A stretch of DNA of 60,287 nt from an uncultured Bacteroidota bacterium (lineage in GTDB: Bacteria; Bacteroidota; Bacteroidia; Flavobacteriales_D; Parvicellaceae). Location of the stretch: positions 1 through 60,287 of the forward strand of contig CACAYQ010000003.1 in the NCBI GenBank assembly GCA_902536695.1, in the 5' to 3' direction. A model generated the notes under the pieces. That model did not search any database and was not told the DNA's origin. It worked only from the letters and a program-made list of their open reading frames with translations. Position numbers and translations under genes: made by a program. Below are positions 27,125 to 53,735 of this stretch, one piece after another; position 1 is the stretch's first letter, and the number at the start of each line of letters is the position of its first letter.

Positions 27125-27522
27125 GGGGCCGATTTTGGATTTGACAGCAAGAGAAATAGTTAAGTAAGCATGTCGAGCGTTGTGAATGGTCTCGTAAAAC
27201 ACAATTCACAAGCCTATAAACGGCAATAACAACTACGCGCTTGCAGCTTAATTACAGATGTAATTAGGCCTAATCTCGCAGATAAGATCTGCCTGACAAG
27301 CTGCCCAGCTATGGTTACCTGTTCAGCGGCTATAGTAATTGGGTATCGTTGGTCTGAACTAAGTGGTGTAGCGTCTTGATGCACTGACAAAAACCTAAAA
27401 GACTAAGGATAAATTGGGGTGTTTGTGCTCAGCTTTATTTCTACAATTAATCACAAACTAAGCATGTAGAAAGTTTAATTGTTCCTTGTTTGGACGAGGG
27501 TTCGAAACCCTCCGGCTCCACT
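27125..27522 (+). ncRNA. ssrA: transfer-messenger RNA (tmRNA)
   Basis: 5' GGGGCCG pairs with 3' CGGCTCC; T-arm GAGGG-TTCGAAA-CCCTC; tag frame GGC AAT AAC AAC TAC GCG CTT GCA GCT TAA (27222-27251) = GNNNYALAA*. Confidence 0.95.
27497..27522 (+). repeat. tmRNA 3'-end core (native att site, core 0)
   Basis: AGGGTTCGAAACCCTCCGGCTCCACT; reappears exactly or near-exactly downstream. Confidence 0.9.
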
Positions 27523-27630
27523 ATTTGATATGTTGTTAATAATTAAATAAGCAAAAATAGACAAATAACAGGTTAATATCTCATATTTGAAAAACAAATG
27601 AGATTAAATAGAGACAAATAATTACCTAAA

Positions 27631-27673
27631 ATGTTTGACCTATGTTTGACCTGCTAAATTAAATGTTTGACCT
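27631..27673 (+). promoter_or_regulatory. three direct ATGTTTGACCT repeats in front of the integrase gene (putative arm-type integrase sites)
   Basis: ATGTTTGACCT at 27631, 27642 and 27663 (start spacing 11 and 21 bp). Confidence 0.7.
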
Positions 27674-27681
27674 TTTTGCTT

Positions 27682-28887
27682 ATGACAAGAATTAGTTTCA
27701 CTACCCGCTTTTTTATTAAACACCGAAATAACAATGATCATTTATATGTTAGAATCATTGTAAATAGAAAGTCATCAGAAATATCCTTAAAGAGAACAGT
27801 TTATTTAAGACATTGGGATGATAAACGACAACAATTTAAAGGTGGCAGTGAAGTTTCCCAGTCATTAAATCATTATATGAACGATGTTAGAGGAAAGTTA
27901 ATAGCTATTCACACTCATCTAACTAGCAACGAGGAATACTATGATTCCAAAATAATCAAAAACATATTTCTAGGCCATGAACTGAGAAAACATTTTATCA
28001 TAAAAGAGTTTGACATTCACAATGAAAAAATTAAAGTTTTAGCTAATGAAAATAAAGAATATAGCATTGGCACTTATAAAAGATTTAAAACTGCTAGAAA
28101 TCATTTAAATGACTTTATTAGATATAAAGGAAACAATGATCTAGTTTTTGGAGCTATAACTAGTGAATGGATACACGACTATGAATATTTTTTAAAAACT
28201 CAAAAGAATATTAGTCATAATACAAGTCTAAGATATATCAAGCTATTTAAAAAAATATATGGGATTGCTCTTAGAAATGGATGGGTTAAGAAAGATCCTT
28301 TTAATTCATTTAAGATACGATTCCAAACAGTCAACAGAGAACATCTTTCCTTGAATGAAATAAAAACAATTAAAGAAAAAGAACTCCACACTGATCGATT
28401 AAATCAGGTAAGAGATGTCTTTCTTTTTTGTTGTTTAACTGGTTTTAGATATTCTGATGTTAAGGATCTTACCAAACATGATATTCATATTAATACTGAT
28501 GGAAGTAAGAGTATTATCAAGAAAATAAAAAAGACAAAAGGAACAGTTAGAATTCCATTAATAAAACCAGCTTTAGAGATCGTTAATAAATATGAAGATG
28601 ATTTTTATTGTAAAGTAAAAGGGGTACTTCTTCCAGTTGTTAGCAATCAAAATACCAATGCCTACTTAAAAGAGATAGCAACATTATGCGGAATTGAAAA
28701 AAACTTAACCTTTCACATTGCAAGGCACACTTTTGCAACAGTCTTTTTAGAGCTTGGTATTTCAATGGAGTCAGTAAAAGCTATGCTAGGTCATTCTGAT
28801 ATAACAACAACCCAGATTTATGGTAAGATAACTGATAAAAAATTAATGGAAGAAATGGATAATTTAAAAACAAAAATTAAGTTATGA
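27682..28887 (+). CDS. site-specific tyrosine recombinase/integrase
   Basis: CLTGFRYSDVKDL box I; HIARHTFATVFLELGISMESVKAMLGHSDITTTQIYGKI (HxxR...H...Y); sits at the tmRNA 3' end. ATG start at 27682 preferred to the TTG at 27667 in the track. Confidence 0.95.
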   Translation: MTRISFTTRFFIKHRNNNDHLYVRIIVNRKSSEISLKRTVYLRHWDDKRQQFKGGSEVSQSLNHYMNDVRGKLIAIHTHLTSNEEYYDSKIIKNIFLGHELRKHFIIKEFDIHNEKIKVLANENKEYSIGTYKRFKTARNHLNDFIRYKGNNDLVFGAITSEWIHDYEYFLKTQKNISHNTSLRYIKLFKKIYGIALRNGWVKKDPFNSFKIRFQTVNREHLSLNEIKTIKEKELHTDRLNQVRDVFLFCCLTGFRYSDVKDLTKHDIHINTDGSKSIIKKIKKTKGTVRIPLIKPALEIVNKYEDDFYCKVKGVLLPVVSNQNTNAYLKEIATLCGIEKNLTFHIARHTFATVFLELGISMESVKAMLGHSDITTTQIYGKITDKKLMEEMDNLKTKIKL

Positions 28888-29513
28888 TTGAAATAGATTC
28901 AAATACAATAGTTACAGAAATATTTCTAGAATGTTTTAAAGAGTTGCATCTAAAAAAGCAATCAAACCATGAGGATTTAAAGATGTCAGTTCAAAAATAT
29001 TGCGAACAACTTAATTCTGGAAGAGTAAAATATTTAAGAGAAAAGATTTTATTTATCTCTAATAAAATTGATTTAAAATCATTGAATTTAGAACAAAAGA
29101 AATCGTTGTTTTACATTAATACATTCCTTGATTCATATTCACAAATTGTAAAAAAATCAGATTCTGATATTTTAGATGAAATTTTAAATCCTGAATTTGA
29201 AGAATTAAATAAAGCCGAGGATCCAATAAAGCTAGATTTAACTCAAGCAGAAATACTCGGAATTATTGAAGGGATTTTTCAAGTTTTTTCAAAAGAAAAG
29301 ATTAGTTCAACTAAACTTTTTAAGTTTTGCTCTAATAATTTCAATTCAATTAGATCTAAATCAGATATTCAAACTATTGAATCGTACAAGGAATGTTATT
29401 ATGGTAAACTTAATGTCATAGGTAATAAGACTGGTAAACATAAAATTCGTTATGAAAAAGAAAAAATCATTCAAAAGCTTGAAATGATAATTTCTCATAT
29501 AAATACAAATTAG
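28884..29513 (+). CDS. hypothetical protein, 4-bp overlap with integrase stop
   Basis: ORF translationally coupled to int; no family recognised. Confidence 0.6.
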   Translation: MIEIDSNTIVTEIFLECFKELHLKKQSNHEDLKMSVQKYCEQLNSGRVKYLREKILFISNKIDLKSLNLEQKKSLFYINTFLDSYSQIVKKSDSDILDEILNPEFEELNKAEDPIKLDLTQAEILGIIEGIFQVFSKEKISSTKLFKFCSNNFNSIRSKSDIQTIESYKECYYGKLNVIGNKTGKHKIRYEKEKIIQKLEMIISHINTN

Positions 29514-29575
29514 TAAGACTTACAGTAAGGTTACTAATTAGTTTCACATTGGTTTATTTGTCTAAAAGAAAGACA

Positions 29576-29851
29576 ATGAATCTTGATTTAATTACAAAAA
29601 ACGACTTAAATGACTTTAAACTTGAACTAGTCAATCTAATCACTGACATTCTAAGTAAAAGTCAACCTAAAAAAAAAGAAATTCTTTCCAACGAAGATGT
29701 AAAAGACCTATTAGGAATTTCTACAGGCACTCTGAGAAAATATAGAATTACAGGAAAAATTTCCTACACCAAAATTGATGGCATTTTGTATTATAAATAC
29801 GAAGATGTTATAAAACTTATTGAGTCTAATAAATTTAACTCATTAGGTTAA
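29576..29851 (+). CDS. helix-turn-helix protein, excisionase-like
   Basis: ILSNEDVKDLLGISTGTLRKYRITGKISYTKIDGILYYKYEDVIKLIE winged-HTH of the Bacteroidota mobile-element Xis/HTH_17 type; start likely at internal Met. Confidence 0.8.
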   Translation: MNLDLITKNDLNDFKLELVNLITDILSKSQPKKKEILSNEDVKDLLGISTGTLRKYRITGKISYTKIDGILYYKYEDVIKLIESNKFNSLG

Positions 29852-29998
29852 AAAATATTGATTAGGCTCTGGTGAAGACCAACCTGATTGGACATGACCG
29901 AGGGATATACTGAGGTTGACTTTTAAGGGATGTCAAATAACCTTTGGCATCCTAAGAGAGTGTTCCGAAAAACTTAAAACCAACTTGATAATTCGGCA

Positions 29999-30029
29999 AG
30001 TTCGCCCAGTTATCTTGTATGGGCGAACT
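29999..30029 (+). repeat. perfect 10-bp inverted repeat upstream of the HUH-Rep-like gene
   Basis: AGTTCGCCCA-gttatcttgta-TGGGCGAACT. Confidence 0.85.
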
Positions 30030-30047
30030 GTACCTAATTGAGAAATA

Positions 30048-30530
30048 ATGATAGGAAAAATATACGAAGAGAACACTAAATCAATACCAAGTATGAAAGA
30101 AGCATATATAAAATGGCTAAATGAAGAAGATTGGATTTTTTTTACAACCCTTACAACTAGTTATGAATTGACACAAAAGTCTGCTAGGAGAGCAGCAGAG
30201 AGATTTCATAAATATTTAAAAAACATATCAGATGATCATTGCAAGATGTTCTTTGTTTCAGAAAAGTTTGAATTAAAAGATGGGTATCATCTTCATGCTT
30301 TAATTAATTTACCAGATAAATTTCATGAGTTTATTTATTTCAATAAAATCATATCATCTTGGCAATTAGCAGCTGGTACATTTAATAAAAAAATGGATGA
30401 AAATGGATTTTATCAAGATCAAAAACCATCGAGAATAGATCTTCAAAAATATGACAAGAAGAAAGGGGCCAAAGGTTATTGTGCCAAATATATTTTTAAA
30501 AAGAATTGCGATTACGATATATTAACATGA
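30048..30530 (+). CDS. HUH-type replication/relaxase-like protein
   Basis: motif order FFTTLTT, DGYHLHALINL, KGYCAKYIFK resembles rolling-circle Rep motifs 1-3. Confidence 0.65.
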   Translation: MIGKIYEENTKSIPSMKEAYIKWLNEEDWIFFTTLTTSYELTQKSARRAAERFHKYLKNISDDHCKMFFVSEKFELKDGYHLHALINLPDKFHEFIYFNKIISSWQLAAGTFNKKMDENGFYQDQKPSRIDLQKYDKKKGAKGYCAKYIFKKNCDYDILT

Positions 30531-30760
30531 TTAAAGATTTATCAATAAAGGAAAGAAAGGCTATAAAAAAGTATTTAGTTCATGGAGATTTAAAAAGAGT
30601 AGCTAAAAAACTCAATTTATCCAACTCAGCAATACATGGTTTTTTCAATGGAAAGTCAAATAATCCAGAAATTTTAGATGAGTTGCTTAAATTATTGAGG
30701 AAATATGCTAAAAACAGGGAAGATATTGGTACTATTTTGGGCAAAATAAATGCAGAATAA
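30506..30760 (+). CDS. small helix-turn-helix protein
   Basis: VAKKLNLSNSAIHGFFNGKSNNPEILDELLKLL. Confidence 0.5.
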   Translation: MRLRYINMIKDLSIKERKAIKKYLVHGDLKRVAKKLNLSNSAIHGFFNGKSNNPEILDELLKLLRKYAKNREDIGTILGKINAE

Positions 30761-30836
30761 GTGAAGAAACAATACAGAGTTTACTCAAAAAATATTCAGA
30801 ATTAGCAAATAAATACTTTAAAAAATATGTAGCCTA

Positions 30837-31526
30837 CTATCTAAATACAGCCTTAAGACGCTTAAGTAATTCAGAAAGTACTTTGTCATCTAGTTCTAAA
30901 TCAAAGTTGTCAGCTACATTACTATGAAACCTTATTGCATCTTTAATATATTTTTCTTGACGTTCATAATTAAAACGTTTCCAAGATTTATTGTTTTTTT
31001 TACTGTTATGAAATTTTAATAATAATTGAATATTATCTGGATGATGATTTCCCTGTTCTTTTTTATTTAGAAGGGCTTGTGCATGATCAAGTTCAAAGTC
31101 CAAGCTAAAAAAATCTTTAAAAGCTTTTTGAATATTTCTAAATTCATCTAACCTGTATAACTCAAAAATTTTTAAGTTGTCTTTAGCTTGACTTATAATT
31201 TCAGAACGTTTGATTGGCTCAATATCGTCATTTACATCTCTTTCTAAATTGATTTGTTGTTCTTGATCTGTTAGGTATTTAACTTTTCTTGGTCGTTCAC
31301 TTTCGTCTATAATTACATTCTTGAACCCACCTGCTGAAAGTCTTGATGAAATTCTTGCAGCAATTTCTCTTAGTCCAGTTGTATCATTTTTCTGCCCCTT
31401 AGCTTCTTTTTCAGCTTTTTTATATAAATCTGGATACATTTCGCTTACTTTCTGAGCCCATTCAGAAACGGTAATAAAATCATTAAATGTTTTTAAAGCC
31501 TCTGCATATTTTTCATAAATTTTCAT
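30837..31526 (-). CDS. HNH-motif nuclease-like protein
   Basis: FELDHAQALLNKKEQGNHHPDNIQLLLKFHNSKKNNKSW (DH...N...HN arrangement). Confidence 0.6.
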   Translation of the reverse strand: MKIYEKYAEALKTFNDFITVSEWAQKVSEMYPDLYKKAEKEAKGQKNDTTGLREIAARISSRLSAGGFKNVIIDESERPRKVKYLTDQEQQINLERDVNDDIEPIKRSEIISQAKDNLKIFELYRLDEFRNIQKAFKDFFSLDFELDHAQALLNKKEQGNHHPDNIQLLLKFHNSKKNNKSWKRFNYERQEKYIKDAIRFHSNVADNFDLELDDKVLSELLKRLKAVFR

Positions 31527-32071
31527 TTTAATAGTCCTGTCTTCAGTGCTTCTTGTTTAATAGTATCTAAATGCTTTATAAAGTCCTTACATAACCACAT
31601 TAATTTTACAGGGTCTTTTATGTCACAGAAGTCAGTCAGTTTACCGCAAACCTGTCGGGAAGGTACAGGTGTCTCAGAGTTCTTGTGGTCAATAAATATT
31701 TTGTCGTAGGCCTGCCAGCGACTGTCAACTAAGTCACCATATTCTTCGTTTGTCTCGATCTCAATGTCTACCTGCTCCAATTGGCTGAGCATTCCTTTTC
31801 CGAGTTTACCTTGATTGAAAACTTCTCCGATAATTATCTCTGAAAGTGTTGGTTGTGAGGAGAACAGTCGGAACCCCAACTGTGTCGTCCAAGCACGAAA
31901 GACGAATAGTTCCGCTATTGTTTTCTTTTTATTGTCAACACCATCCAAAAAGTCCGAATAATGTCCACTGTAGTTCATTAGGTAGAAGTGTTGTCCAAGT
32001 TTGATTCTCTCATTTATGTTGTCTGCTGTCAAGGTGTCTTGCTTGCCGAAAAGTTTTCCTAAAAGTCCCAT
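31523..32071 (-). CDS. hypothetical protein, coupled to downstream HNH gene
   Basis: 4-bp stop/start overlap with 30837-31526; no family recognised. Confidence 0.6.
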   Translation of the reverse strand: MGLLGKLFGKQDTLTADNINERIKLGQHFYLMNYSGHYSDFLDGVDNKKKTIAELFVFRAWTTQLGFRLFSSQPTLSEIIIGEVFNQGKLGKGMLSQLEQVDIEIETNEEYGDLVDSRWQAYDKIFIDHKNSETPVPSRQVCGKLTDFCDIKDPVKLMWLCKDFIKHLDTIKQEALKTGLLK

Positions 32072-32125
32072 TTTCTATTTTTTAATGTGCGATAACGTTT
32101 TGGCTAAGCTGCGTTTTAATGCAGT

Positions 32126-32809
32126 TTAGGTTTTGTTGGCAGTAGTGTTTTTTATTATCTTCAAATTTTTAAGTTCAGTATTATCAATTACCAAATCTGC
32201 TTGTTCTTCGGGTTTATTCTCGTCAATATAGATTTTTGAAGCTTTATGGTATCTATTGTCATATTTCTCTTTGGTCGCTTTTAATCCGCCCAAAAGTTTA
32301 ATATCTCTATTCATTCCACGAAGCAAAGCTGTTTTGAAATCTGTTTTTAAATAAATTTTCAAATCCCAATGATTTCTATATTTTGGCTTAAATAAATATG
32401 CCCCATCCGTTATAAGAACAGTTTCGTTGTCAATTTTGGTTGGTTTTAAATTCAAATACTCATCTGTTTCCAAATCATGAGTTGCTTTTGTAATATTTGG
32501 AATTTCAGATTGTGATGATTTTAGTACTTTCTCAACAAAGGCTACTTCATCATAGGAATCTTCATAATAACCTTTAGCGGAATCACGTCCTTGTTTATAT
32601 CGGACTTCTTTATTAAAGTGAAAACCATCAATTGAAATCTGTTTCGCATTTATATTTTCAGAATTTAGATATTCTGTAAGTTTTCCCGCAAAAATAGTTT
32701 TCCCTGTTCCTTCAATTCCATTTATCGCAACTCTGATAGGTTTAGATTTTTTCGCCCTAATTGAGACTATGCTATTTTTAATCAGTTCTAAAGTTTCTGT
32801 TTCGTTCAT
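32126..32809 (-). CDS. uridine kinase-like P-loop NTPase
   Basis: VAINGIEGTGKTIFAGKL Walker A; ISIDGFHFNKEVRY; TDGAYLFKPKYRNHWDLKIYL. Confidence 0.8.
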   Translation of the reverse strand: MNETETLELIKNSIVSIRAKKSKPIRVAINGIEGTGKTIFAGKLTEYLNSENINAKQISIDGFHFNKEVRYKQGRDSAKGYYEDSYDEVAFVEKVLKSSQSEIPNITKATHDLETDEYLNLKPTKIDNETVLITDGAYLFKPKYRNHWDLKIYLKTDFKTALLRGMNRDIKLLGGLKATKEKYDNRYHKASKIYIDENKPEEQADLVIDNTELKNLKIIKNTTANKT

Positions 32810-32825
32810 CTGTTATATTACTGCC

Positions 32826-32857
32826 AACGAGGGAATATACGTATTACGTTTATTTCC
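32826..32857. repeat. partial B-type repeat block
   Basis: AACGAGGGAATATACGTATTACGTTTATTTC matches 37607 and 48235 blocks. Confidence 0.7.
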
Positions 32858-32911
32858 TTTATAAATATACATGAAAACTTAAATAAACGTAAATAGCATT
32901 AAGTTATGGTC

Positions 32912-33009
32912 AAAATGTTTGACCTATGTTTGACCTCTGGATTTTTAGATTTGTAACCAACTGGAAATAAACAGATTACAAGTAGGGTTCGAAACCCTCC
33001 GGCTCCACT
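32912..33009 (+). repeat. A-type repeat 1 (arm + hairpin + exact 26-bp core at 32984-33009)
   Basis: AAAATGTTTGACCTATGTTTGACCTCTGGATTTTTAGATTTGTAACCAACTGGAAATAAACAGATTACAAGTAGGGTTCGAAACCCTCCGGCTCCACT. Confidence 0.93.
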
Positions 33010-33033
33010 AATTATTGATTTATTAGTTGTTTT

Positions 33034-33828
33034 TTATTTACCTAACTTTAATATTCTAAATGCTCCTTGAATTACCAATACAAAAACGATTGTTCCTATA
33101 ATTAAATCAGGCGTACTTGAATTTAGCCAATTTACCAAAAGTCCAGCTATTATAACTCCAAAATTGATAATTACATCATTAGAGGTGAAAATCATACTCG
33201 CTTTCAAATGAGCTTCTTCTTTATTATTTGACTTTTGTAAAATGTAAAGACAAATTCCGTTTGCAATAAGTGCGAAAACCGAAACGATAATCATTGTCGA
33301 AAAGTCAGGAAGTTTCTCGTCTACAATAAATCGCCTTAAAACTTCCGAAAATCCGATAACAGCAAGTATTATTTGAAAATATCCAGCAAGTTTTGCTATC
33401 CGCTTTTTTCTTGTTAAAGTTCCACCAACTGCAAACAAACTAATTCCGTATACAAAGCTGTCGGCAAGCATATCTAGACTGTCTGCAACTAATCCCATTG
33501 ATTTTGAGATTATTCCAGTTGTCATTTCGATTAGAAAAAAGGCAAAGTTTATCAATAGAATTGTCCAGAGCAGTTTTTTCTGGTTTGAGTTTTCATTAAA
33601 TTCAGTTTGGTAGGTTTTTTTAGTAGAGATTTTCTTACCACCTAAATTCAGTTCAATAATAGACTTTTCGATTTGGTCAATTTCTCCGTTATGAAAAACA
33701 GTCAATTTTCGGTTTGGTATATCAAAAGTCAAATTCGCAATATTTGAAATTCCATCCAGTTTCATACGGATTAGATTTTCCTCCGAAGGACAATCCATTT
33801 TAGTAATCTCAAATATTGATTTATTCAT
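33034..33828 (-). CDS. cation diffusion facilitator-type transporter with N-terminal HMA-like domain
   Basis: MDCPSEENLIRMKLDGI N-terminus; SMGLVADSLDMLADSFVYGISLFAVG CDF motif. Confidence 0.85.
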   Translation of the reverse strand: MNKSIFEITKMDCPSEENLIRMKLDGISNIANLTFDIPNRKLTVFHNGEIDQIEKSIIELNLGGKKISTKKTYQTEFNENSNQKKLLWTILLINFAFFLIEMTTGIISKSMGLVADSLDMLADSFVYGISLFAVGGTLTRKKRIAKLAGYFQIILAVIGFSEVLRRFIVDEKLPDFSTMIIVSVFALIANGICLYILQKSNNKEEAHLKASMIFTSNDVIINFGVIIAGLLVNWLNSSTPDLIIGTIVFVLVIQGAFRILKLGK

Positions 33829-33943
33829 TTAGTTTCTTGGTTTTTTGATGTTAAACAAAAGGAGGTAATAAAATTGATGGTTTTACTTTTTTTAAAGATA
33901 TAAGCAAAAAATCATTAGAGTTAAATAAGAACAATTAGTTAGT

Positions 33944-34019
33944 AAAAATGTGTGACCTATGGGTTTTTATATTTGTAATTCACTAGAAATAAAATTAATG
34001 TGGCAACGGCTCAATCCAC
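33944..34019 (+). repeat. degenerate A-type repeat (A1')
   Basis: AAAAATGTGTGACCTATGGGTTTTTATATTTGTAATTCACTAGAAATAAAATTAATG, eroded match to the A consensus without the T-arm core. Confidence 0.6.
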
Positions 34020-34155
34020 TTTTAGTTCTTTAAATGAATCTCAAGACCAAGATATGCAAAATCAGTTAGCTTCTTTTGAAAAAGAATTCAACTCTTGGAA
34101 AGGTGATAGAGAACAGATAGACGATGTATGTGTAATGGGAGTTAGAATAACTTAA
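34000..34155 (+). pseudogene. C-terminal remnant of a SpoIIE/PP2C-family phosphatase
   Basis: in-frame VATAQSTFSSLNESQDQDMQNQLASFEKEFNSWKGDREQIDDVCVMGVRIT*; FxxWKGDxEQxDDVCVxGVR is the typical SpoIIE C-terminus; catalytic part absent. Confidence 0.7.
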
Positions 34156-34192
34156 TGTACAAATTGATTTAAATAAGCACATTTTATGTCAT

Positions 34193-34290
34193 AAAATGTT
34201 TGACCTATGTTTGACCTCTGGATTTTTAGATTTGTAACTAATTGGAAATAAACAGGTTACAAGTAGGGTTCGAAACCCTCCGGCTCCACT
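34193..34290 (+). repeat. A-type repeat 2 (exact core 34265-34290)
   Basis: near-identical to A1 over its whole length. Confidence 0.93.
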
Positions 34291-34325
34291 ATAGAATCTT
34301 ACACTACAATTTTTTTTAATGGACA

Positions 34326-36572
34326 CTAATTTTTGTATACCGTTTTATCAAGGTATTCACTTATTTGATCAAACGAAAATGAAATTGTACTACCATTATC
34401 TACACTTCTGCAAGCATTAGATAAATTCCAATCAGCAAAAAAACTGATACCATCATTTGAAATACTGATTTCTAGCTCATTCATGTCATATTTTAAATCT
34501 TCAGGCAGTATTCCAAAACAATCTGTTGATTCATTAAAATATTTTTCATAATCTTCTCTGATCAGTTTATTAATTTCTTTGATTAAATTTAGTTGTTTAG
34601 CATTAAAAATTTGGGAATTATTAACCATTAAATATTTGTCGTCAATTTTTAAGTAAAGTATTTGACTTTTTTCCAAATATCCTCTGTAATCCTCGACTTC
34701 AGTGGTTGTTACAATTCTTATATTTTCATACTCACAAGTTGTTACAGTTTTTTCATTATTGAGGTATCCTTCAATCAAATCATTATATTCTTCTTTTGAG
34801 TAATCTTTTTCAGTACACATTACTTGTTTTTCTTGACGACTAACTTCGAACTTCAATTTTTTTAAATTTTTAGAATTTTTCCAATATCCATAAAGAATAC
34901 TTCCTTTAATAGATCCTTCAAAAATTCCAGTATTATCTCCTTTTTGATTAAATTCTTCAATTGTAAAAATTCCATCATAAATTTCTCCTGCTAATTGCAA
35001 AAATGTGTTGCTCGTCTTATATCTGTATCTTCCTCCAATTTTGTTGTCGGAGCTATTTAAATACATTTCAATTGCATATTTATCATCAATTAAGCCTAGA
35101 TACTTTCCTTCAATTATGTTGTTTGAAAATATTCCTTCATTTTTTATAATGTACGACACTTTCCAAGGCTTATACTTAAAAACTCCTTTTTCTTTTTTTC
35201 TATAATTACCATATAAAAAATGCGTTCCTGGTTTAGCTGGAACTACTATACTATCTGTGGAATATCCACTAAACTCTATCACGTTTAATTTATTTTGTTG
35301 CCTTTTCGGTAATAAATATTGCGAAGAGTCATCAACCCAATAACTTATGTCAATATATTCTGGGTAATCTTTTTTGAATATTGGAATTTTAGTAAAACCC
35401 TTATCAGTATTCACAGTAAAAGTTCTAGTATTTGAGTCTATTGGTCCACTCTTGAGAAGATCTTCAATAAATCTTGAAGGTAAAGTAGCTCTTAGATGTA
35501 TTTTATCAAGTGCTGTAGTAAGCGCTTCTTGAATTTGTAACAAAAAATAATTGGGGTTTTCATTTTTATCAATAGAAAGTATAGTTAATATTTCTTTAAT
35601 AGCATCTTTGTCCTCTGAATTAATCTTAGAAGTCATAATTTGCAAATTTAAAATCGAGTCTATTGCTTTTTCATTATAATCTCCGCTTTTAACAATTTTT
35701 CTTAGAAGTTTAGTGTCAAAACTATAGAAGTAATTTTGGTCCAAAGATGTATTTTTTACATAAAAATTATTTGCTTGATAATTTGAAAGATATAGAACAA
35801 GATCATATTTAAGCTTATCTATTAAATACATGGTAGTATCTAATTTTAAATCAATTTTTTGTCTTTTTATTTTTTTTAAAAGCTTGGTGGTGTAACTGTT
35901 AGAGTCAAAAGTTTTAAAATCAAATTCAGAAATTGTATATGGTCTGATTATTAAGCTGGAAATTAATTTATCAAAATTTAGATTATTATCAGAAACTAAT
36001 GCTGTGCTTAATTGTTCTGAAAATTCAATTAGTTGATCTTCCAAGATATAAAAATCAGTTTGGTCGCATGTATTTCTAAGTCCGTTTGTTAGTTTATTAA
36101 GGTCTTTTTGATTTTTTCTAAGAGCTTTGTTAAAGGATTCAAGTTTTTTTGGGTTTTGACTAATTTCCCAAATGTTTTGTAACTGAGAAAAAAGAGTAGA
36201 CTGTTCTAATAAAATAAAATATTCATTCCAAATTTTATGGCAATCACTTAATTGTTCATCACTTAATAAATTAACCTCTTTATTATAATTACTTACAATA
36301 AAATTATTCAAGTTTGCACAACTATGAAATATACTATCACTAACAATTTTTAGGTATTGTATGTAACGAAAAGACTCTGTGCCCATCCCTTTCATAGCCT
36401 GTAAACTGTATTCAGTTTGGATATCAGACATAAGCTTGTAATTATAATTTAAGCGATTATTAATTTCCTCGTTGAGTTTTAAATCTAGTTCAACAAAATC
36501 ATTAGGATTGGAATTACAACCTAGTAAGCTAAAAAATATTACAAAAGCTACACTAAAAATTACTTTATTCAT
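34326..36572 (-). CDS. large lipoprotein of unknown function (748 aa)
   Basis: lipobox FSLLGCNSN; single gene between repeats A2 and A3. Confidence 0.7.
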   Translation of the reverse strand: MNKVIFSVAFVIFFSLLGCNSNPNDFVELDLKLNEEINNRLNYNYKLMSDIQTEYSLQAMKGMGTESFRYIQYLKIVSDSIFHSCANLNNFIVSNYNKEVNLLSDEQLSDCHKIWNEYFILLEQSTLFSQLQNIWEISQNPKKLESFNKALRKNQKDLNKLTNGLRNTCDQTDFYILEDQLIEFSEQLSTALVSDNNLNFDKLISSLIIRPYTISEFDFKTFDSNSYTTKLLKKIKRQKIDLKLDTTMYLIDKLKYDLVLYLSNYQANNFYVKNTSLDQNYFYSFDTKLLRKIVKSGDYNEKAIDSILNLQIMTSKINSEDKDAIKEILTILSIDKNENPNYFLLQIQEALTTALDKIHLRATLPSRFIEDLLKSGPIDSNTRTFTVNTDKGFTKIPIFKKDYPEYIDISYWVDDSSQYLLPKRQQNKLNVIEFSGYSTDSIVVPAKPGTHFLYGNYRKKEKGVFKYKPWKVSYIIKNEGIFSNNIIEGKYLGLIDDKYAIEMYLNSSDNKIGGRYRYKTSNTFLQLAGEIYDGIFTIEEFNQKGDNTGIFEGSIKGSILYGYWKNSKNLKKLKFEVSRQEKQVMCTEKDYSKEEYNDLIEGYLNNEKTVTTCEYENIRIVTTTEVEDYRGYLEKSQILYLKIDDKYLMVNNSQIFNAKQLNLIKEINKLIREDYEKYFNESTDCFGILPEDLKYDMNELEISISNDGISFFADWNLSNACRSVDNGSTISFSFDQISEYLDKTVYKN

Positions 36573-36624
36573 CTCAATTTTACTTGAACAATAAAATTAT
36601 ATAAAATATCAAATCATTTCACTT

Positions 36625-36721
36625 AAATGTTTGACCTATGTTTGACCTCCGGATTTTTCGTTTTGTAACTAGCTGGTAATAAATAGGTTACAAGTAGGGT
36701 TCGAAACCCTCCGGCTCCACT
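36625..36721 (+). repeat. A-type repeat 3 (exact core 36696-36721)
   Basis: near-identical to A1/A2. Confidence 0.93.
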
Positions 36722-36785
36722 TAGTGATTTACTTAAGAAAAACGACTAAATTAAACTTTGTAGTGCGTATCCCGAAGGGTATGCA

Positions 36786-37583
36786 CTATACAAAATGTTG
36801 TAGCCAGTTTCTTTTCATTAAAAGTGTATTCTTATTAATTTCAAACTTGATTCCTTTTTTTAATTTGTATAGAACTGTTAACCCAATAATAAAAACAACT
36901 GTAATAATTCTAAAAATATTCGCATAAGTTCCCCCAAACGCATTATCGGAAACAGAGAACATCATCCAAAATAAATTCATAAAGAGATGTAAAAAAATGG
37001 AAACCCATAGGTTGTAATTCCACTCTACGTATACCCAAGCAAATAAAATCGCTCCTAAAAACGTAGTTAAGAAAATCCCGACTAACGTTGTAAAATCTTG
37101 ACTTTGATATAAGTGACCTAAGGCAAATACTAATGCACCAAATACAATTGACAGAATAAATCCAATATTCGTAAATCTATATATTTGTCCAAATAAAATT
37201 CCTCTAAAAAATAATTCTTCTACAAATGCTGCAATTAAAGCACCCATTAGAATTCTTGTAAAGGTTAATTCTGTATTAAAGTCAAAAAGAACAGCATAAC
37301 CTATAAGCATTGGAAATGAACATATTAAAGCAAATAAAAATCCTTTTCCTATTGATCCATTTAGTCCCAATACATCAGGGAAGTTTTTGAATTTATGAAT
37401 TATTCCAACCCCTGTGAATAGAGGAATTCCGATAATCAGATATGTTATAAAATGACAAACTCCAATATTACTTATAAATTCATTTAACAATTTACGTATG
37501 TCAGAAAAGAACATCTGTTGGAGTGCATAATAGACTCCAAAGAACATAATCGTTATCAATACTACTTTTATTGTTTTATTCAT
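36786..37583 (-). CDS. CPBP family intramembrane metalloprotease
   Basis: FVEELFFRGILFG, FALGHLYQS, HLFMNLFW motifs. Confidence 0.9.
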   Translation of the reverse strand: MNKTIKVVLITIMFFGVYYALQQMFFSDIRKLLNEFISNIGVCHFITYLIIGIPLFTGVGIIHKFKNFPDVLGLNGSIGKGFLFALICSFPMLIGYAVLFDFNTELTFTRILMGALIAAFVEELFFRGILFGQIYRFTNIGFILSIVFGALVFALGHLYQSQDFTTLVGIFLTTFLGAILFAWVYVEWNYNLWVSIFLHLFMNLFWMMFSVSDNAFGGTYANIFRIITVVFIIGLTVLYKLKKGIKFEINKNTLLMKRNWLQHFV

Positions 37584-37605: not shown

Positions 37606-37772
37606 CTACAACGAGGGAATAAACGTAATACGTTTATTTCTTCACTTTTAAGTATGTTTTAAATTTATAAACAAAACGAATAAGTCCTTTCAAATCAGAG
37701 TGAAAAGAGTTCGAAATCTGTCCCTTTGGGTCCACTATTTAATATGTTGTTAATAATTAAATTAGCAAGGGG
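37606..37772 (+). repeat. B-type repeat 1
   Basis: AACGAGGGAATAAACGTAATACGTTTATTTC ... AGTTCGAAATCTGTCCCTTTGGGTCCACTATTTAATATGTTGTTAATAATTAAAT; right part matches the sequence just downstream of tmRNA (27517-27550). Confidence 0.85.
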
Positions 37773-39753: not shown

Positions 39754-39850
39754 AAAATGTTTGACCTATGTTTGACCTCCGGATTTTCGATTTTGTAACT
39801 AATTGGAAATAAATAGGTTACAAGCAGGGTTCGAAACCCTCCGGCTCCAC
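39754..39850 (+). repeat. A-type repeat 4 (core 39826-39850)
   Basis: near-identical to A1-A3; core lacks only the last T. Confidence 0.93.
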
Positions 39851-40027
39851 CTTGTGGGACAGTTTCAATTTTTTCGAAAACTGTCCCTTATTTTTTTCTT
39901 CTAAGTTCTTGTCTGTCTGTAAGATATATCTAAGTGCATCGTTGATTCTAGGTGTTCGACATTTTTTTCCATCAAATTGTAGTTTTTCTGGAAAAATCGA
40001 ACTTATAATTTCCTGTTTTTGAGCCAC
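39818..40027 (-). pseudogene. C-terminal remnant of a large serine recombinase, reading antisense through repeat A4
   Basis: IISSIFPEKLQFDGKKCRTPRINDALRYIL resembles Bacteroidota recombinase C-termini; the tail VEPEGFEPCL is encoded by the antisense tmRNA core. Confidence 0.65.
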
Positions 40028-40063
40028 AGTTGATTTATCATGTGGGCAATATTTTCTTCATGT

Positions 40064-40651
40064 TTAACCATGACAGTTAGTGGTTATAAAGAGTTTGTTT
40101 TTGCACGATTCCTCAGCAAGAGCGATTCGTATCACCTCTGCATAGCCCAGTGCAATTCGGAATGAATTTTCGAGTGGTAAATCTAGTACAAAACTGATAA
40201 AACTCCGGATACAACCGGCATGAGTAATGATAACTACATTTTTATACTCGGTTGTTTGTAGTTCCTCCATAAATGAAACAATACGTTGATGCAATTCTGC
40301 ATAGGATTCAGCACCTCCTGCTTTTTCATTTACAAAATCCTGCATCCATACTGAAAGTGATGTTGGTTCGATTTTATCCCATGATTTATTTTCCCATTCA
40401 CCAAAATTCAATTCCATCAATCTGTCATCAAACACAGGATCATTGCTTAGTTTTGCCGCCAGTTTTGAGCATCGTTGCAATGGGCTTGAATATACTTTAT
40501 CGAATTGTTTGGGCAATTTTTTTAGAATGGCTATAAACTCCTTTTCAAACAAATGCTCCTCAGGAGGTAAATCAGTTTGCCCGTAGCAAATGCCTTTTTC
40601 TATTGCTGGATTTGTATGTCTGATTAAATGAACTTCCATACACCAAGACAA
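40064..40651 (-). CDS. cobC: alpha-ribazole phosphatase / histidine phosphatase family
   Basis: EVHLIRHTNPAIEKGICYGQTDLP; KVYSSPLQRCSKLA; FGEWE; first gene upstream is cobS. Confidence 0.85.
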   Translation of the reverse strand: MSWCMEVHLIRHTNPAIEKGICYGQTDLPPEEHLFEKEFIAILKKLPKQFDKVYSSPLQRCSKLAAKLSNDPVFDDRLMELNFGEWENKSWDKIEPTSLSVWMQDFVNEKAGGAESYAELHQRIVSFMEELQTTEYKNVVIITHAGCIRSFISFVLDLPLENSFRIALGYAEVIRIALAEESCKNKLFITTNCHG

Positions 40652-41394
40652 TAGATTAAGGTTACCACTTCATTAATTTGTTGGGCAGCGCCCAGGCAAT
40701 CGCCCGTGTAGCCATCAATCCACTTTTGAAAATAAGCAGCCAGATAAACCTTCATGCCATAAACCGGAACAAACACTGCCACTATCCACCAGTTATTGAA
40801 TAAAACAAGGGCTGGCAGCACCCAAACACTTCCTATTAATAGGTTTTTAAAGGTAAGCTCCTTGGCTATGGGTTTGATTTTACTGCTGGCATCTTCGCGT
40901 GAATAACTGTGCGTGTAAACAATCGTTAATGAACTCCAACGACTTAGCACATGTGCCAGAACCAAGCTTTTAAGTGCAAACCATTGATTTAATTCAAGCA
41001 AGGAAATAAGTACAGCCATTTTTAAAGCAAATAATAAAATAAATCCAACCACAGAATAAGTGCCTACACGACTGTCTTTCATGATTTCAAGAATTTGGGA
41101 TTTGGTCCAGCCACCGCCGAAACCATCGCACACATCTCCAAAGCCATCTTCATGAAAAGCGCCTGTCATCAATACAGAAACTGCCAGAGCCAATATTACG
41201 CACACTGAAATAGGAAGGATGAAAAGACTGCCGTATATTACAAGTGCCATAGCCAAACCTATCAGCCAACCAATCAACGGAAAATATCGCGTTGCCTTAT
41301 TGAGATAATCTTCCGAATGGTCCACCCAAACCGGGCATGGAATGCGAGTATAGAACATCAATGCGGTAAAAAATATGCGTAATTCTTTTTTCAT
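40624..41394 (-). CDS. cobS: adenosylcobinamide-GDP ribazoletransferase
   Basis: FYTRIPCPVW, YFPLIGWLIG, GAFHEDGFGDVCDGFGGG. Confidence 0.93.
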   Translation of the reverse strand: MKKELRIFFTALMFYTRIPCPVWVDHSEDYLNKATRYFPLIGWLIGLAMALVIYGSLFILPISVCVILALAVSVLMTGAFHEDGFGDVCDGFGGGWTKSQILEIMKDSRVGTYSVVGFILLFALKMAVLISLLELNQWFALKSLVLAHVLSRWSSLTIVYTHSYSREDASSKIKPIAKELTFKNLLIGSVWVLPALVLFNNWWIVAVFVPVYGMKVYLAAYFQKWIDGYTGDCLGAAQQINEVVTLIYCLGVWKFI

Positions 41395-42392
41395 TTTTTA
41401 TTTGTTACACCTGCATTTTCAAAACTTGCCATTTCATTCATAAACCTTACGGCACTTTCAATAATGGGGTATGCCAAGGCGCAACCCGTTCCTTCTCCTA
41501 GTCGCAGACCTAAATTTAAAACTGGCTTCTCCCCTAAATAATTAAGTAATAAAGCATGGCCTTTTTCATCGCTCAAATGGCAAGACAAGGCATTGTTTTT
41601 TATGGCAGGGTTGATGTTGAATGCACACAGATACGCACAACCTGCAATAAATCCATCTATGAGCAGCAACATGTTTTTATCATATGCGGCAAGCATTGCT
41701 CCGCACATTTGGGCAATTTCAAATCCTCCGAAATACTGCAATGCTTCTATAGCATTTGTAGGTTGATCATGCTTTTTTTGAACTTCTAGAAGTGTATTTA
41801 TTTTAAAAGATAGTTGTTTATCATTTAAACCCGCTCCTTTTCCAGCACATTGTTCTAAAGGAATGCCGCTGATTGAACTCATTAATAAACTAGCCGAAGA
41901 AGTATTGCCAATGCCCATTTCGCCAAAGCCTACCACATTACAACCTTCTTTATGTAGTTCCTTCACTATTATTTCTGCTTTTTCAAAGCAGTTTATTAAA
42001 TGTGCTTCAGTCATGGCAGGTTTCTCCAGCATATTAGCAGTGCCCTTTGCAATTTTAGCATCTACAAGTACTTCGTTAGGATCAAATTCATAATTAACTC
42101 CTGCGTCAATTACTTTAAGGTTTATGCCATGCTGTTTGCAAAAAACATTAATAGCTGCACCACCGTTTAAGAAGTTTAGCACCATCTGAGAGGTTACTTC
42201 TTGCGGGTAGGCACTCACTCCGCATTTGGCAATGCCGTGGTCGGCTGCAAAAACAAGCATGGTTGGATTTTTCAGTTCCGGCTTTTCACTTTGTTGAACA
42301 AGACAAATTTTGGCTGCTATTTCTTCCAGCATCGCCAATGATCCTATGGGCTTTGTTTTGTGGTCAATTATATGTTGAATACGTTCGATCAT
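41391..42392 (-). CDS. cobT: nicotinate-nucleotide--dimethylbenzimidazole phosphoribosyltransferase
   Basis: DHKTKPIGSLAMLEEIA, FAADHGIAKCGVSAYPQEVT, GFGEMGIGNTSSA, GEGTGCALAYPII. Confidence 0.95.
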   Translation of the reverse strand: MIERIQHIIDHKTKPIGSLAMLEEIAAKICLVQQSEKPELKNPTMLVFAADHGIAKCGVSAYPQEVTSQMVLNFLNGGAAINVFCKQHGINLKVIDAGVNYEFDPNEVLVDAKIAKGTANMLEKPAMTEAHLINCFEKAEIIVKELHKEGCNVVGFGEMGIGNTSSASLLMSSISGIPLEQCAGKGAGLNDKQLSFKINTLLEVQKKHDQPTNAIEALQYFGGFEIAQMCGAMLAAYDKNMLLLIDGFIAGCAYLCAFNINPAIKNNALSCHLSDEKGHALLLNYLGEKPVLNLGLRLGEGTGCALAYPIIESAVRFMNEMASFENAGVTNKK

Positions 42393-42395
42393 ATT

Positions 42396-43091
42396 TTAAT
42401 TTACAGGCAGTAAATCGCAAAACCAAAAACTGCTTTTTGTTCCATTATTGTTATATTCCCTTAAAATCGTTTCACCCTTTGTGAAGGCCACTTCTTTTTT
42501 ATAGTAGGGAGCATAAAAGCAAAACGTATGAAACTCCCCGTTTTCTCCACAAGGGTCAATACCTAAAGGCAAATCATTAATGAAATCCTCGTCAATTACT
42601 TTACCTGCAAATGATTTATCAAGCAAAGTCGCATTTACACACACTACCACTGCTTTGAAACCTGAATCAATAAATTCATGCATTAACTCTTTTGTATTTC
42701 TTTTCCAAAGCGGAAAAGCACATTGAATTGCGAAGGCTTGCAATTGTTGCTCTCGATACTTCTTTAAATCTTCCAGAAAAATATCACCAAAGCCTGAATG
42801 GGTAAAACCTTTATTTTTTAAATCCTGCACCTTTGAGCGCATAAGGTTTTCGTAGGTCTGATTATCCGTTTGTTCGGGCAGCAGCAGTTGTTCGTTTATT
42901 ATACCAATGGCTTTTAACTGCTTATTCAAAAGTTCAGTGCGCAAGCCGTGCATACTTACCCGATTGTGATGTGCATTGATCGATGTGAGCAAACACTCTA
43001 TGCTAAAGCGTTCATCCTGCAACAAATAATGCAGGGCCAAGGCTGAATCTTTCCCAGTACTCCAATTGAAATATGTTTTATACTGAGGCAT
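42396..43091 (-). CDS. Dph6-like ATP-pyrophosphatase (adenine nucleotide alpha hydrolase family)
   Basis: FNWSTGKDSALALHYLL PP-loop; HGLRTELLNKQ; GIDPCGENGEFHTF. Confidence 0.85.
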   Translation of the reverse strand: MPQYKTYFNWSTGKDSALALHYLLQDERFSIECLLTSINAHHNRVSMHGLRTELLNKQLKAIGIINEQLLLPEQTDNQTYENLMRSKVQDLKNKGFTHSGFGDIFLEDLKKYREQQLQAFAIQCAFPLWKRNTKELMHEFIDSGFKAVVVCVNATLLDKSFAGKVIDEDFINDLPLGIDPCGENGEFHTFCFYAPYYKKEVAFTKGETILREYNNNGTKSSFWFCDLLPVN

Positions 43092-43650
43092 TTCTTAATT
43101 TTAATACAGGAAATTGTTTTTGTGCCATTGCAAATACTCCAAACAATACGCCTGAGTAAAATAAATCTCCGAAAAATGTTCCTTTCAAAAACGGAATACC
43201 TGCGGCATAGCAAGTCATTAAGCCTTCAAATGTTTTCGGATACATCGTTCCGTCCGCCCACACGCCAAAATTTGAAACCAAAAAGAAAATTGCGGTAGAC
43301 GTTAATGCTCCTGCAAATACTCTTTGTGGATTAGTTTTCTGCAAAATGAAAATTCCTGCAAGCGTGATGAAAAGGTAACTGCCGTATTGCCAATAGAACC
43401 CTTTATAAAACCAGGTAAATTCAGGGTAATATTGTGCATAGATTAGATTATTAATAAACAAATCGCTTAACCAGGTGGTAGCTGTAGGAATTAAGAACGC
43501 TTGCCACTTTTTTGCGAAATAAGCCGCACCAAATAATCCGATAGCACCAAGTGGTGAAAAATTGGGCATGTGGGGAGTGATGCGACTGAAAGCTGCTAAA
43601 ACAATAAGCAGCGTCAATACACTAAAACGAAGGTTGATGGATTGTTTCAT
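43078..43650 (-). CDS. multi-pass membrane protein (DUF6580-like, ECF-substrate-binding-like)
   Basis: FSRITPHMPNFSPLGAIGLFGAAYF; YAAGIPFLKGTFFGDLFYSGVLFG. Confidence 0.7.
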   Translation of the reverse strand: MKQSINLRFSVLTLLIVLAAFSRITPHMPNFSPLGAIGLFGAAYFAKKWQAFLIPTATTWLSDLFINNLIYAQYYPEFTWFYKGFYWQYGSYLFITLAGIFILQKTNPQRVFAGALTSTAIFFLVSNFGVWADGTMYPKTFEGLMTCYAAGIPFLKGTFFGDLFYSGVLFGVFAMAQKQFPVLKLRNASV

Positions 43651-43655
43651 ATTGA

Positions 43656-44696
43656 TTAATTTTTGAAATAAAAGTCACCGGGAATTATTCCGGCTAAATA
43701 CGTTTTTACTAAAGTTCCATTGGCTTGATACACATAAATTTTCCCACGCTGAACATAGTCAATGGCATCAGCCACTAAAATTTCTTTGGTTTGGGGATGA
43801 ATACCAAGCCCATAAAAATTTCTTCCATCTGTGGGTATCAAAGTTGTTGAAGGAAGCGCATTAGCATTTATCGGCATTTGAACCACGCCTTCATTCAAAA
43901 AATACAATGTGTCGTTGGTGCCGTTTATATCCAATCTTCTGGGTAAATCATTTGCGAGGTTAAACGTAAAAGAAATCTCAACCGTATTTTCAATGGGATT
44001 GATGCGATGGAGTGTTGCATTGATGTTATTGCTGTTACTGCCACTGCACAGTACCCAAAGTTTGCCGTTCCGGTCTTCTATAATAGAGTTAGCCCCTGCA
44101 CCAATTTCTATGCTGTCTGTAAGTTGATCGTTCATGGTATTGATAATGTACAATTGATTTCGTTCTCTGTTGGTTACAAAGGCTTTGCCATAAGCCAACA
44201 CTAATTCTTCTGTCCAGCCAGCACAGGCAATTTCGCCTGTACGTTGGTTGCTGCTTAGGTCAACAATCGAAATGGCATCATCATATAAGTCGGTAACATA
44301 GGCTTTGCTATTGCTTACAGGTAAAAAATATCGTGGCGAGTTGAATCCGGTGATGGTTGCAACTGATACAAAAGTATTTGCATTGACCACCTCAATTTTG
44401 TTGGAATTATTTACCACAATATAAGCCAAGCCATTAAAAAAATACATGGATTGGCACACGTCACCCAAAGGTCTATTATTGGTAGGTTCAAATAAATCAG
44501 GTACAGCATCCGCCAATCCTTCTTCATAGAAACTCACCGCGGCATTGCCAAATTGAAAGTTGCCTTCGTTGGTTATATATACACCATCTTCACTGCCCGT
44601 AAGAATCGGATTTTCAGGTAAAGGTGGTATATCTTTTCTACATGCTTGTAGAAAAATGATAACCAAGAATAAACTCCATATTCGCTTTCTAATCAT
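43656..44696 (-). CDS. YncE/DUF5074-type beta-propeller surface lipoprotein
   Basis: LQACRKD lipobox; repeated beta-propeller blades (VYITNEGNFQFGNAAVSFY, KAYVTDLYDDAISIVDL). Confidence 0.8.
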   Translation of the reverse strand: MIRKRIWSLFLVIIFLQACRKDIPPLPENPILTGSEDGVYITNEGNFQFGNAAVSFYEEGLADAVPDLFEPTNNRPLGDVCQSMYFFNGLAYIVVNNSNKIEVVNANTFVSVATITGFNSPRYFLPVSNSKAYVTDLYDDAISIVDLSSNQRTGEIACAGWTEELVLAYGKAFVTNRERNQLYIINTMNDQLTDSIEIGAGANSIIEDRNGKLWVLCSGSNSNNINATLHRINPIENTVEISFTFNLANDLPRRLDINGTNDTLYFLNEGVVQMPINANALPSTTLIPTDGRNFYGLGIHPQTKEILVADAIDYVQRGKIYVYQANGTLVKTYLAGIIPGDFYFKN

Positions 44697-45684: not shown

Positions 45685-45899
45685 TTTTTCAAAAATCTTG
45701 AATGGTTGATATTAGAGACTCTAGAAATTATCAAATTATTTTCCCAAGTGGCGTCCTGAAAATCTACTACTAAAATAGAAGAATCTGTTCCCCTGCCTGT
45801 CCAGTATTGAGCATCTGATAAGGTAAACTGTGCTTTAATCGTGGTGCTGCACAGTAAAATGAATAAGGCAAACATTAATTGTTGAAATTGTTTTTTCAT
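45681..45899 (-). CDS. short secreted protein, possibly truncated N-terminus of a B12-locus surface protein
   Basis: signal peptide then YWTGRGTDSSILVVDFQDATWENN, then an early stop overlapping the next gene. Confidence 0.5.
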   Translation of the reverse strand: MKKQFQQLMFALFILLCSTTIKAQFTLSDAQYWTGRGTDSSILVVDFQDATWENNLIISRVSNINHSRFLKK

Positions 45900-45910
45900 T
45901 ATTTTTTGAT

Positions 45911-47848: not shown

Positions 47849-47979
47849 TCTTTTCCATTAAGTTCATTACTTATTTTGTAATGCTTCGGAAAGAATAGAA
47901 AAGACAGAATAAGCCCACAGAATAGGGGAAACTTATTTAACTCGACTAAAAGCTTCAATCCACGAAAGCATTGTCAATT

Positions 47980-48150
47980 CGGAATAGGCAGGTCTCCTGA
48001 CTTGTAACGGTGTTTGCCGTCCTTCCCGCTTTTGGCAGTGGACATTATTTGCAAAACCTTTGTTGCGTTACTTACAGTTGCGGGACAGTTTGCGATTTTC
48101 ACACAATTCCCTTTCAATCTACAATTAAGTAAAACCTTTCCGGTTGATAA
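47980..48150 (-). promoter_or_regulatory. cobalamin riboswitch
   Basis: minus strand: AGGGAATTGTGTGAAAATCGCAAACTGTCCCGCAACTGTAAGTAACGC...CCACTGCCAAAAGCGGGAAGGACGGCAAACACCGTTACAAGTCAGGAGACCTGCC. Confidence 0.93.
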
Positions 48151-49067: not shown

Positions 49068-49200
49068 ATTAAATACTGGTTTTTTATAAAAATAATAAAT
49101 TTATTAGTAAACAATAAAAAATTGTTATTTGACAATAAACTTTTGATTTAATTAATTTTTTTCGGATCGAAAATTAAATATACTTAACTCCGTAAAATGT
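49068..49200. repeat. ~130-bp duplicated upstream segment, copy 1 (includes start of A5)
   Basis: near-identical to 53499-53631: TTAAATACTGGTTTTTTATAAAAATAATAAATTTATTAGTAAACAATAAAAAATTGTTATTTGACAA... Confidence 0.88.
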
Positions 49201-49290
49201 TTGACTTATGTTTGACTTCCGGATTTTTCAGTTTGTAACTATCTGAATATAAATAGGTTACAATTAGGGTTAGAAACCCTCCGGCTCCAC
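49194..49290 (+). repeat. A-type repeat 5 (core with one mismatch, 49266-49290)
   Basis: TTTGACTTATGTTTGACTTCC...TTGTAACTATCTGAATATAAATAGGTTACAATTAGGGTTAGAAACCCTCCGGCTCCAC. Confidence 0.9.
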
Positions 49291-49358
49291 CTAAGATACA
49301 TAACACGGATAAAAATTGGAAAATTTCATGTTGGCAATCCTTTAATCTTGTTTTGTAC

Positions 49359-50683: not shown

Positions 50684-50804
50684 AAAATGTTTGACCTATG
50701 TTTGACCTCCAGATTTTCAGATTTGTAACTATCTGGAAATAAACTGGTTAAAAGCAGGGTTCGAATCCACCTGTGGATCATGAAATAAACCCTCCGGCTC
50801 CACT
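50684..50804 (+). repeat. A-type repeat 6 with 23-bp insertion inside the core
   Basis: AGGGTTCGAA-tccacctgtggatcatgaaataa-ACCCTCCGGCTCCACT. Confidence 0.88.
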
Positions 50805-52289: not shown

Positions 52290-52326
52290 TAAATGTTTGA
52301 CCTATGTTTGACCTCGGGATTTTTAT
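52290..52326 (+). repeat. A-type half repeat (left arm only, A7)
   Basis: AAATGTTTGACCTATGTTTGACCTCGGGATTTTTAT; hairpin and core absent. Confidence 0.85.
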
Positions 52327-53498: not shown

Positions 53499-53631
53499 GT
53501 TAAATACTGGTTTTTTTATAAAAATAATAAATTTATTAGTAAACAATAAAAAATTGTTATTTGACAACAAATTTTTGATTTAATTAATTTTTTTCGCACC
53601 GAAAATAAACATATTTAACTCCGTAAAATGT
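53499..53631. repeat. ~130-bp duplicated upstream segment, copy 2 (includes start of A8)
   Basis: near-identical to 49068-49200. Confidence 0.88.
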
Positions 53632-53735
53632 TTGACCTCAGGATTTTTCAGTTTGTAACTAGCTGAAAATAAATAGGTTAAAATTAGGGTTCTAATCCGC
53701 TTATGAATCACAAAAAAATCTAGCCCTTCAGTATT
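53625..53735 (+). repeat. A-type repeat 8, degenerate, core interrupted
   Basis: AAAATGTTTGACCTCAGGATTTTTCAGTTTGTAACTAGCTGAAAATAAATAGGTTAAAATTAGGGTTCTAATCCGCTTATGAATCACAAAAAAATCTAGCCCT. Confidence 0.8.

Follow-up and report, generated by a model that had tools for sequence, protein, structure and literature searches.

Integrases of the IntCTnDOT subgroup, such as those of CTnDOT and NBU1, occur in Bacteroidota, combine AB, CB and CAT domains and have arm sites beside the core (PMC8138268). In CIME and microCIME accretion, units that lack int, measure about 1-3 kb and have att sites stand in tandem with an int element at the 3' end of a gene (PMC7563491). In the KplE1 intS type, the target is tRNA-like and the int promoter region contains the attL arm sites; autoregulation is expected where attL overlaps the int promoter (PMC2951348). 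Finally, chromosomal integrons have one integrase and many small cassettes, each with one recombination site, in an array downstream of a fixed site. We analysed a window of 60,287 nucleotides (the whole stretch of contig CACAYQ010000003.1 considered here, from an uncultured marine Parvicellaceae bacterium of the Bacteroidota), in which an array of repeats and cargo genes behind ssrA resembles each of these systems in the features just named.

The integrase element and its repeated motif

The window contains one element with an integrase gene (int), which extends from the core in ssrA to the first further core copy (27523-33010). Its features are as follows.

27125..27523, plus strand: ssrA (tmRNA; ARAGORN; Rfam RF00023, 160.8 bits)
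27497-27523, plus strand: att core, the ssrA 3' end AGGGTTCGAAACCCTCCGGCTCCACTA (core copies found in the window)
27631..27641, plus strand: putative arm site 1 of the left arm, ATGTTTGACCT, 109 bp past the tmRNA end at 27521
27642..27652, plus strand: putative arm site 2 of the left arm (exact motif copy)
27663..27673, plus strand: putative arm site 3 of the left arm, ending 8 bp before the int ATG
27682..28887, plus strand: int, tyrosine recombinase with arm-binding (Arm-DNA-bind_5), SAM-like core-binding and catalytic domains (Pfam, AlphaFold2, Foldseek)
28884..29513, plus strand: 209-aa ORF overlapping the int stop, without family match (ORF list, profile searches)
29549..29851, plus strand: HTH_17 protein, excisionase-like, candidate directionality factor (PF12728; PHROG excisionases weak)
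30048..30530, plus strand: replication-initiator-like protein, HUH type (Pfam; REP_ORF2-G2P just below cut-off)
32915..32936, plus strand: A repeat 1, putative arm pair at the right end of the int element; 54 bp separate it from the last 18 nt of the core
32984..33010, plus strand: core copy 1, right end of the int element and left end of the cation-efflux unit (core scan)

Three domains of Int scored above the Pfam cut-off, namely PF17293 (arm), PF13102 and PF00589. In the AlphaFold2 model (mean pLDDT 85), beta strands at residues 6-15, 18-27 and 30-39 are followed by a helix at 57-82, and lambda Int on DNA (1z1b) was among the Foldseek matches of the model, with 386 columns aligned. By its domains and its host group, Int is of the IntCTnDOT kind in the classification of PMC8138268, and it apparently retains Arg I, as do NBU1, NBU2 and Tn4555 (PMC8138268). 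Among the other ORFs of the int element no transfer genes were recognised, and the HUH-type initiator-like gene (30048-30530) hints at replication of the excised circle.

The motif ATGTTTGACCT was found exactly where the preliminary description had placed it, in three copies 5' of int with start spacings of 11 and 21 bp. The third copy had been said to overlap a TTG start candidate and to lie about 9 bp before the likely ATG. TTG 27667 does fall inside this copy, while the gap to ATG 27682 is 8 bp and not 9. Since a close relative (G018, L130) has one T missing between motif and ATG and thereby loses the TTG frame, TTG 27667 is very probably not the start, and int very probably begins at ATG 27682. 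Over the whole window we counted 16 exact copies of the motif on the plus strand and 0 on the minus strand; with one mismatch allowed there were 20 copies, against a mean of 1.7 and a maximum of 4 in dinucleotide shuffles.

A repeats, cores and cargo units

Besides the pair before int, exact pairs with copies 11 bp apart start at 32915, 34196, 36627, 39757, 50687 and 52293, and a pair of the same spacing with one mismatch per copy lies at 49197/49208. Lone copies were seen at 53628 and, with one mismatch, at 33948. That well-kept A repeats open with two copies 11 bp apart had been noticed before, and a pair was indeed located at every such repeat. The remaining assembly (1.70 Mb, 62% complete) held one further exact pair, at C39:276, within an A repeat with core and near the contig start; the sole other match to the pair, on C5 with 3 mismatches, looks like a decayed A repeat. 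Because exact pairs are confined to core-bearing or decayed A repeats and to the int leader, the motif pair is tied to att structures. The features behind the int element are listed below.

33034..33828, minus strand: cation efflux family protein, cargo (Pfam)
34196..34217, plus strand: arm pair, A repeat 2 (motif scan)
34265..34291, plus strand: core copy 2 (core scan)
34326..36572, minus strand: 748-aa ORF without family, cargo (ORF list, Pfam)
36627..36648, plus strand: arm pair, A repeat 3 (motif scan)
36696..36722, plus strand: core copy 3 (core scan)
36786..37583, minus strand: CPBP/Rce1-like protease, cargo (domain search)
39757..39778, plus strand: arm pair, A repeat 4 (motif scan)
39826..39852, plus strand: core copy 4 (core scan)
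49197..49218, plus strand: arm pair, A repeat 5, ATGTTTGACTT twice (motif scan)
49266..49292, plus strand: core copy 5 (core scan)
50687..50708, plus strand: arm pair, A repeat 6, with interrupted core (3' half 50782-50805; motif and core scan)
52293..52314, plus strand: arm pair without core, decayed (motif and core scan)
53628..53638, plus strand: single arm copy with decayed core (motif and core scan)

The core follows the pair at a constant distance in five of the seven pairs, being interrupted at 50687 and absent at 52293. Its copies differ from one another at the final one or two positions, and copy 5 has a single internal change as well. Across 132 bp the A repeats are 66-87% alike, with the invariant columns concentrated in the arm pair and the core. 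Units such as 33010-34291 and 34291-36722 have an att core at both ends and no int and stand in tandem with the int element, and the int-less units of the window carry arm pair and core at their right end. As read from these sequences, the A repeats are copies of the right end of the int element (arm pair plus core) that end int-less cargo units. A bilateral location of the arms had been proposed. It stands for the int element, whose putative arm sites flank the core (27631-27673 on one side and 32915-32936 on the other, with an arm-to-arm distance of 181 bp), and not for the six int-less units following A cores, in which no 10-11/11 arm copy was found within 220 bp of the left core. A weak 9/11 match at +209 after core 4 was the sole one among these six left ends. 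With no left arm, the six units are therefore one-armed. Similarly, the motif had been thought to mark all cargo boundaries; it does so at A-type repeats, but the B-type boundaries near 37.7 and 48.3 kb are without it.

This second repeat type (B), at 37609-37768 and 48226-48385 and also in three further loci (L121, L123 and L125), consists of a GGATAAACGTAATACGTTTAT block and a variant core GTTCGAAATCTGTCCCTTTGGGTCCACTA without ATGTTTGACCT arms, and its core is followed by the same 35 bp or so as ssrA in the window. B repeats are possibly the right ends of another element family at the ssrA site. Between the arm pair and the core of A repeat 1 (32954-32978), and at the equivalent place in other A repeats, we observed an inverted repeat, TTTGTAAC...GTTACAA. 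In G017 it reads TGTCTGTAA...TTACAGACA, so that the sequence is changed and the symmetry kept; it may serve as a site for another protein. Several int-less units of different genomes (36722, L115, L118, L122, L126) have similar left ends immediately behind the core, of the form CTTAGTAATTCTCTCGAGGAAAACGACT. On another contig of the window's own genome (C93, L128), a tRNA-like gene is directly followed by an ssrA core copy, GGTTCGAAACCCTCCGGCTTTACTA (2700-2811), a possible secondary integration at another T-arm. As for cargo functions, the interval between A repeat 4 and B repeat 2 (39852-48154) holds cobalamin salvage genes and a TonB receptor-like gene, named from their translations only, as well as a cobalamin riboswitch (47970-48154, minus strand). 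A defence role of the cargo was considered and rejected, PADLOC giving two very weak matches only.

Probable arm words of other elements and of related integrases

The exact 22-mer formed by the pair was found in 24 stretches of a 264 Gb genome collection, where about 0.03 would be expected from base counts alone. Various Bacteroidota have it next to tRNA genes: sixteen of the stretches are on the 3' side of such a gene, at a distance of 47-56 bp for tRNA-Asn, tRNA-Met and tRNA-Phe, 60 bp for tRNA-Leu, 111 bp for tRNA-Val and 138 bp for tRNA-Arg. Two more belong to ssrA arrays. In one locus (L057), the pair immediately precedes the int ATG, 111 bp beyond the tRNA, the same placement as in the window. 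Four elements, from Flavobacterium enshiense, Gelidibacter gilvus, F. haoranii and one MAG, have the pair at both ends, where the 3' part of the tRNA recurs as a direct repeat (core) of 43-46 bp. The pair is about 48 bp from the core at one end and about 114 bp at the other, and the coordinates give an arm-to-arm distance of about 204-208 bp. None of 356 order members outside the window's family had the 22-mer at up to one mismatch; the word is therefore rare and not background sequence. A genome-wide scan had been suggested as a check of the link to ssrA cores: in its own genome the pair is not common away from these cores, and elsewhere it is tied to other tRNA cores. A literature text search for TGTTTGACC gave no relevant match among the matches listed. 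In the Gelidibacter gilvus locus (L051), two tRNA-Asn core copies lie 556 bp apart at the distal end (4993 and 5549), a doubled core that forms a tandem mini-unit in another family.

Integrases of other groups that have the same motif share only about 25% identity with the window Int (15-22% in the N-terminal domain, NTD), while the closest integrases (about 40% identical), which also adjoin tRNA or tmRNA genes, lack the word. For this reason we first doubted that Int reads the motif. The doubt was resolved by arrays of variable sequence found at the same place in the closer integrases: their leaders contain a direct pair 11-12 bp apart, of other sequence, and then a third copy, usually inverted and at +36-44, whereas the third copy of the window is direct and at +32. 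A search of the genome contig collection with the single Int as query gave no relative, and a single close relative of the integrase in the tRNA-Met element turned up in 89 Flavobacteriaceae genomes. With 60 further relatives added, one scoring rule was applied to all 67 loci with a neighbouring tRNA or tmRNA gene, the window's own included. An array (pair 11-12 bp apart plus third copy) started 100-139 bp past the tRNA or tmRNA in 30 of the 67, compared with 0.15 (maximum 2) in shuffles and 0, 0 and 3 in other stretches of the same leaders; the remaining 37 had no array above threshold under the same rule.

The variable words also bear on a reading of the motif as a Bacteroidota promoter element (the TAnnTTTG -7 box) repeated as a driver of transcription. 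The junction of two copies reads TATGTTTG, as such a box might, and copies precede int. However, single and third copies are without the TA, no TTTG lies about 20 bp upstream of the junction, the motif of the A repeats points away from the minus-strand cargo, and TTCTGTCACC, TTGCGCCGAC and AATCAGACAA occupy the same place in relatives, so that we find a promoter role hardly credible.

If an A repeat is a normal attR, relatives should have their own arm pair at a similar distance before the distal core. Among 13 elements checked, a distal core was present in four, the other nine having none inside the DNA covered. All four had their own arm copy, 54, 55, 55 and 61 bp before the core, with the full pair 12 bp apart at two of these ends; the gap in the window, measured likewise, is 54 bp (32936 to 32991).

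Across the relatives, arm similarity correlated with NTD identity at r = 0.45 and with identity in the other domains at 0.11. In a partial Mantel test, uncorrected for phylogeny, the NTD given both other domains had r = 0.44 (p = 0.0005, 2000 permutations) and the catalytic domain given the NTD had r about 0. By this measure, the arm sequence tracks the N-terminal domain of Int and not its catalytic domain. Two residues, R29 and S31 (401-aa numbering), which lie where the third strand begins or just ahead of it, are common to the window Int and most of the same-word integrases and nearly absent from the relatives; residues 29-31 are RKS in the window Int and GKR in a TTCGGTTACCT-type relative. 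This is only suggestive of R29 and S31 being residues tied to the word.

Direct repeats spaced by about one helical turn are a frequent target of excisionases, and the repeats could accordingly be sites of an excisionase or directionality factor such as the HTH_17 protein at 29549. The excisionase-like gene lies inside the int element, and similar-looking HTH genes are found in the tRNA-Met and tRNA-Asn elements. We nevertheless give this possibility little weight: the motif occurs on either side of the core and also precedes int, its sequence tracks the Int arm-binding domain once the rest of Int is corrected for, and the HTH_17 proteins of the motif-sharing elements are too dissimilar for phmmer at E<0.1. 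Altogether, the placement at both ends of independent elements, the arrays fixed in position and variable in sequence, the distal ends and the covariation with the NTD bear out the earlier proposal, and ATGTTTGACCT is very likely an arm-type site for the NTD of the 27682-28887 integrase, an enzyme of the IntCTnDOT type targeting the T-arm and 3' end of ssrA.

Related ssrA loci share parts of the array. In G008, the DNA that adjoins ssrA matches the core and the next ~190 bp of the unit behind A repeat 4 at 98% identity, although the ssrA regions of G008 and the window are only 81% identical. G016, in which int is shortened, contains a copy of the int leader with 96.5% identity, and in G007 (97% identical to the window in the ssrA region) and G023 ssrA is immediately followed by int-less units. 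The 98% unit start, the 96.5% leader and the units behind ssrA fit an exchange at cores between species. An int-less unit of G017 (L122) has a left triple and a right pair, both TTTTGCC/T, both ends being changed together, and in G011 (L126) the TTTTGCC and TTTGACC arm forms occur within one array. Cargo of G017 resembles cargo of G021, and the arm dialects in front of the two differ. Because the genome is an incomplete metagenome assembly and several relatives' contigs end at or near ssrA, all array lengths are minimum values.

The same comparison speaks to whether the A repeats are mere DNA duplications without a role in mobility, the motif being a passenger. Their likeness over 132 bp would agree with this, as homologous duplication could spread them. 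Yet the invariant columns cluster in the arm pair and core, the same geometry recurs in independent elements, and the unit behind A repeat 4 matches the ssrA-adjacent DNA of G008 far better than the ssrA regions match each other, all of which makes simple duplication extremely improbable.

Proposed mechanism and comparison with known systems

In the mechanism that we propose for an arm-reading Int, the left arm of the int element would consist of the three sites that lie about 110 bp inward of one end, and its right arm of the two sites at the opposite end, 54 bp away from the core. Like lambda Int, the enzyme would bridge arms and core, and an excisionase, for which the HTH_17 protein is a candidate, would set the direction. 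Acting in trans, Int would excise or insert int-less units by core-core recombination, and this single enzyme could plausibly move all cargo units. Int bound at copies 1-3 would dampen its own expression. Judged from sequence, then, the array is made of attR copies of an IntCTnDOT-type integrase at ssrA together with tandem CIME-like accretion. A wider reading, tentative and somewhat doubtful to us, is that a phage-type, arm-dependent integrase has turned into an integron-like platform, in which one-armed units are captured, shuffled and stacked at ssrA by Int in trans and exchanged between species of the family, with the TTTGACC and TTTTGCC dialects separating compatible sets.

With these results, the arm sites of a large family of Bacteroidota integrases can be read from sequence alone. 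The pattern to look for is two direct copies 11-12 bp apart, joined by a third one, at 100-139 bp from the tRNA, with a matching pair that precedes the distal core by about 54 bp; orphan cargo units can therefore be assigned to the integrase that could move them. Which NTD residues read which arm base becomes testable. If one-armed units are mobile, there would be integron-like gene shuffling without an integron.

Compared with CTnDOT and NBU1, the window element targets the ssrA T-arm and has a replication-initiator-like gene and no recognised transfer genes; its putative arms are ATGTTTGACCT, the likeness being one of domains and host group. With respect to CIMEs, the window is a long array in one genome, whereas PMC7563491 counts composites of two or three elements, and arms at both attL and attR were not found in the six int-less units following A cores, which have them at the right end only, while the G017 int-less unit has both. 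KplE1 intS differs in its arm sequences and integrase family, and autoregulation in the window would follow by analogy. Unlike in a chromosomal integron, the A repeat lies at the 5' side of the cargo gene and double-strand arm sites are present. An integron proper was tried and rejected: the IntI model TIGR02249 gave 51 bits on Int against a cut-off of 265, and attC-like folding was absent, four A repeats folding no better than shuffles (z-scores 0.28 to -0.68). In the literature searched we found no description of such an array, in which many small one-armed units in a row share the attR of a single integrase at ssrA. Each ingredient is already known, namely arm sites of the IntCTnDOT type, CIME-like tandem units and an int promoter overlapping attL.
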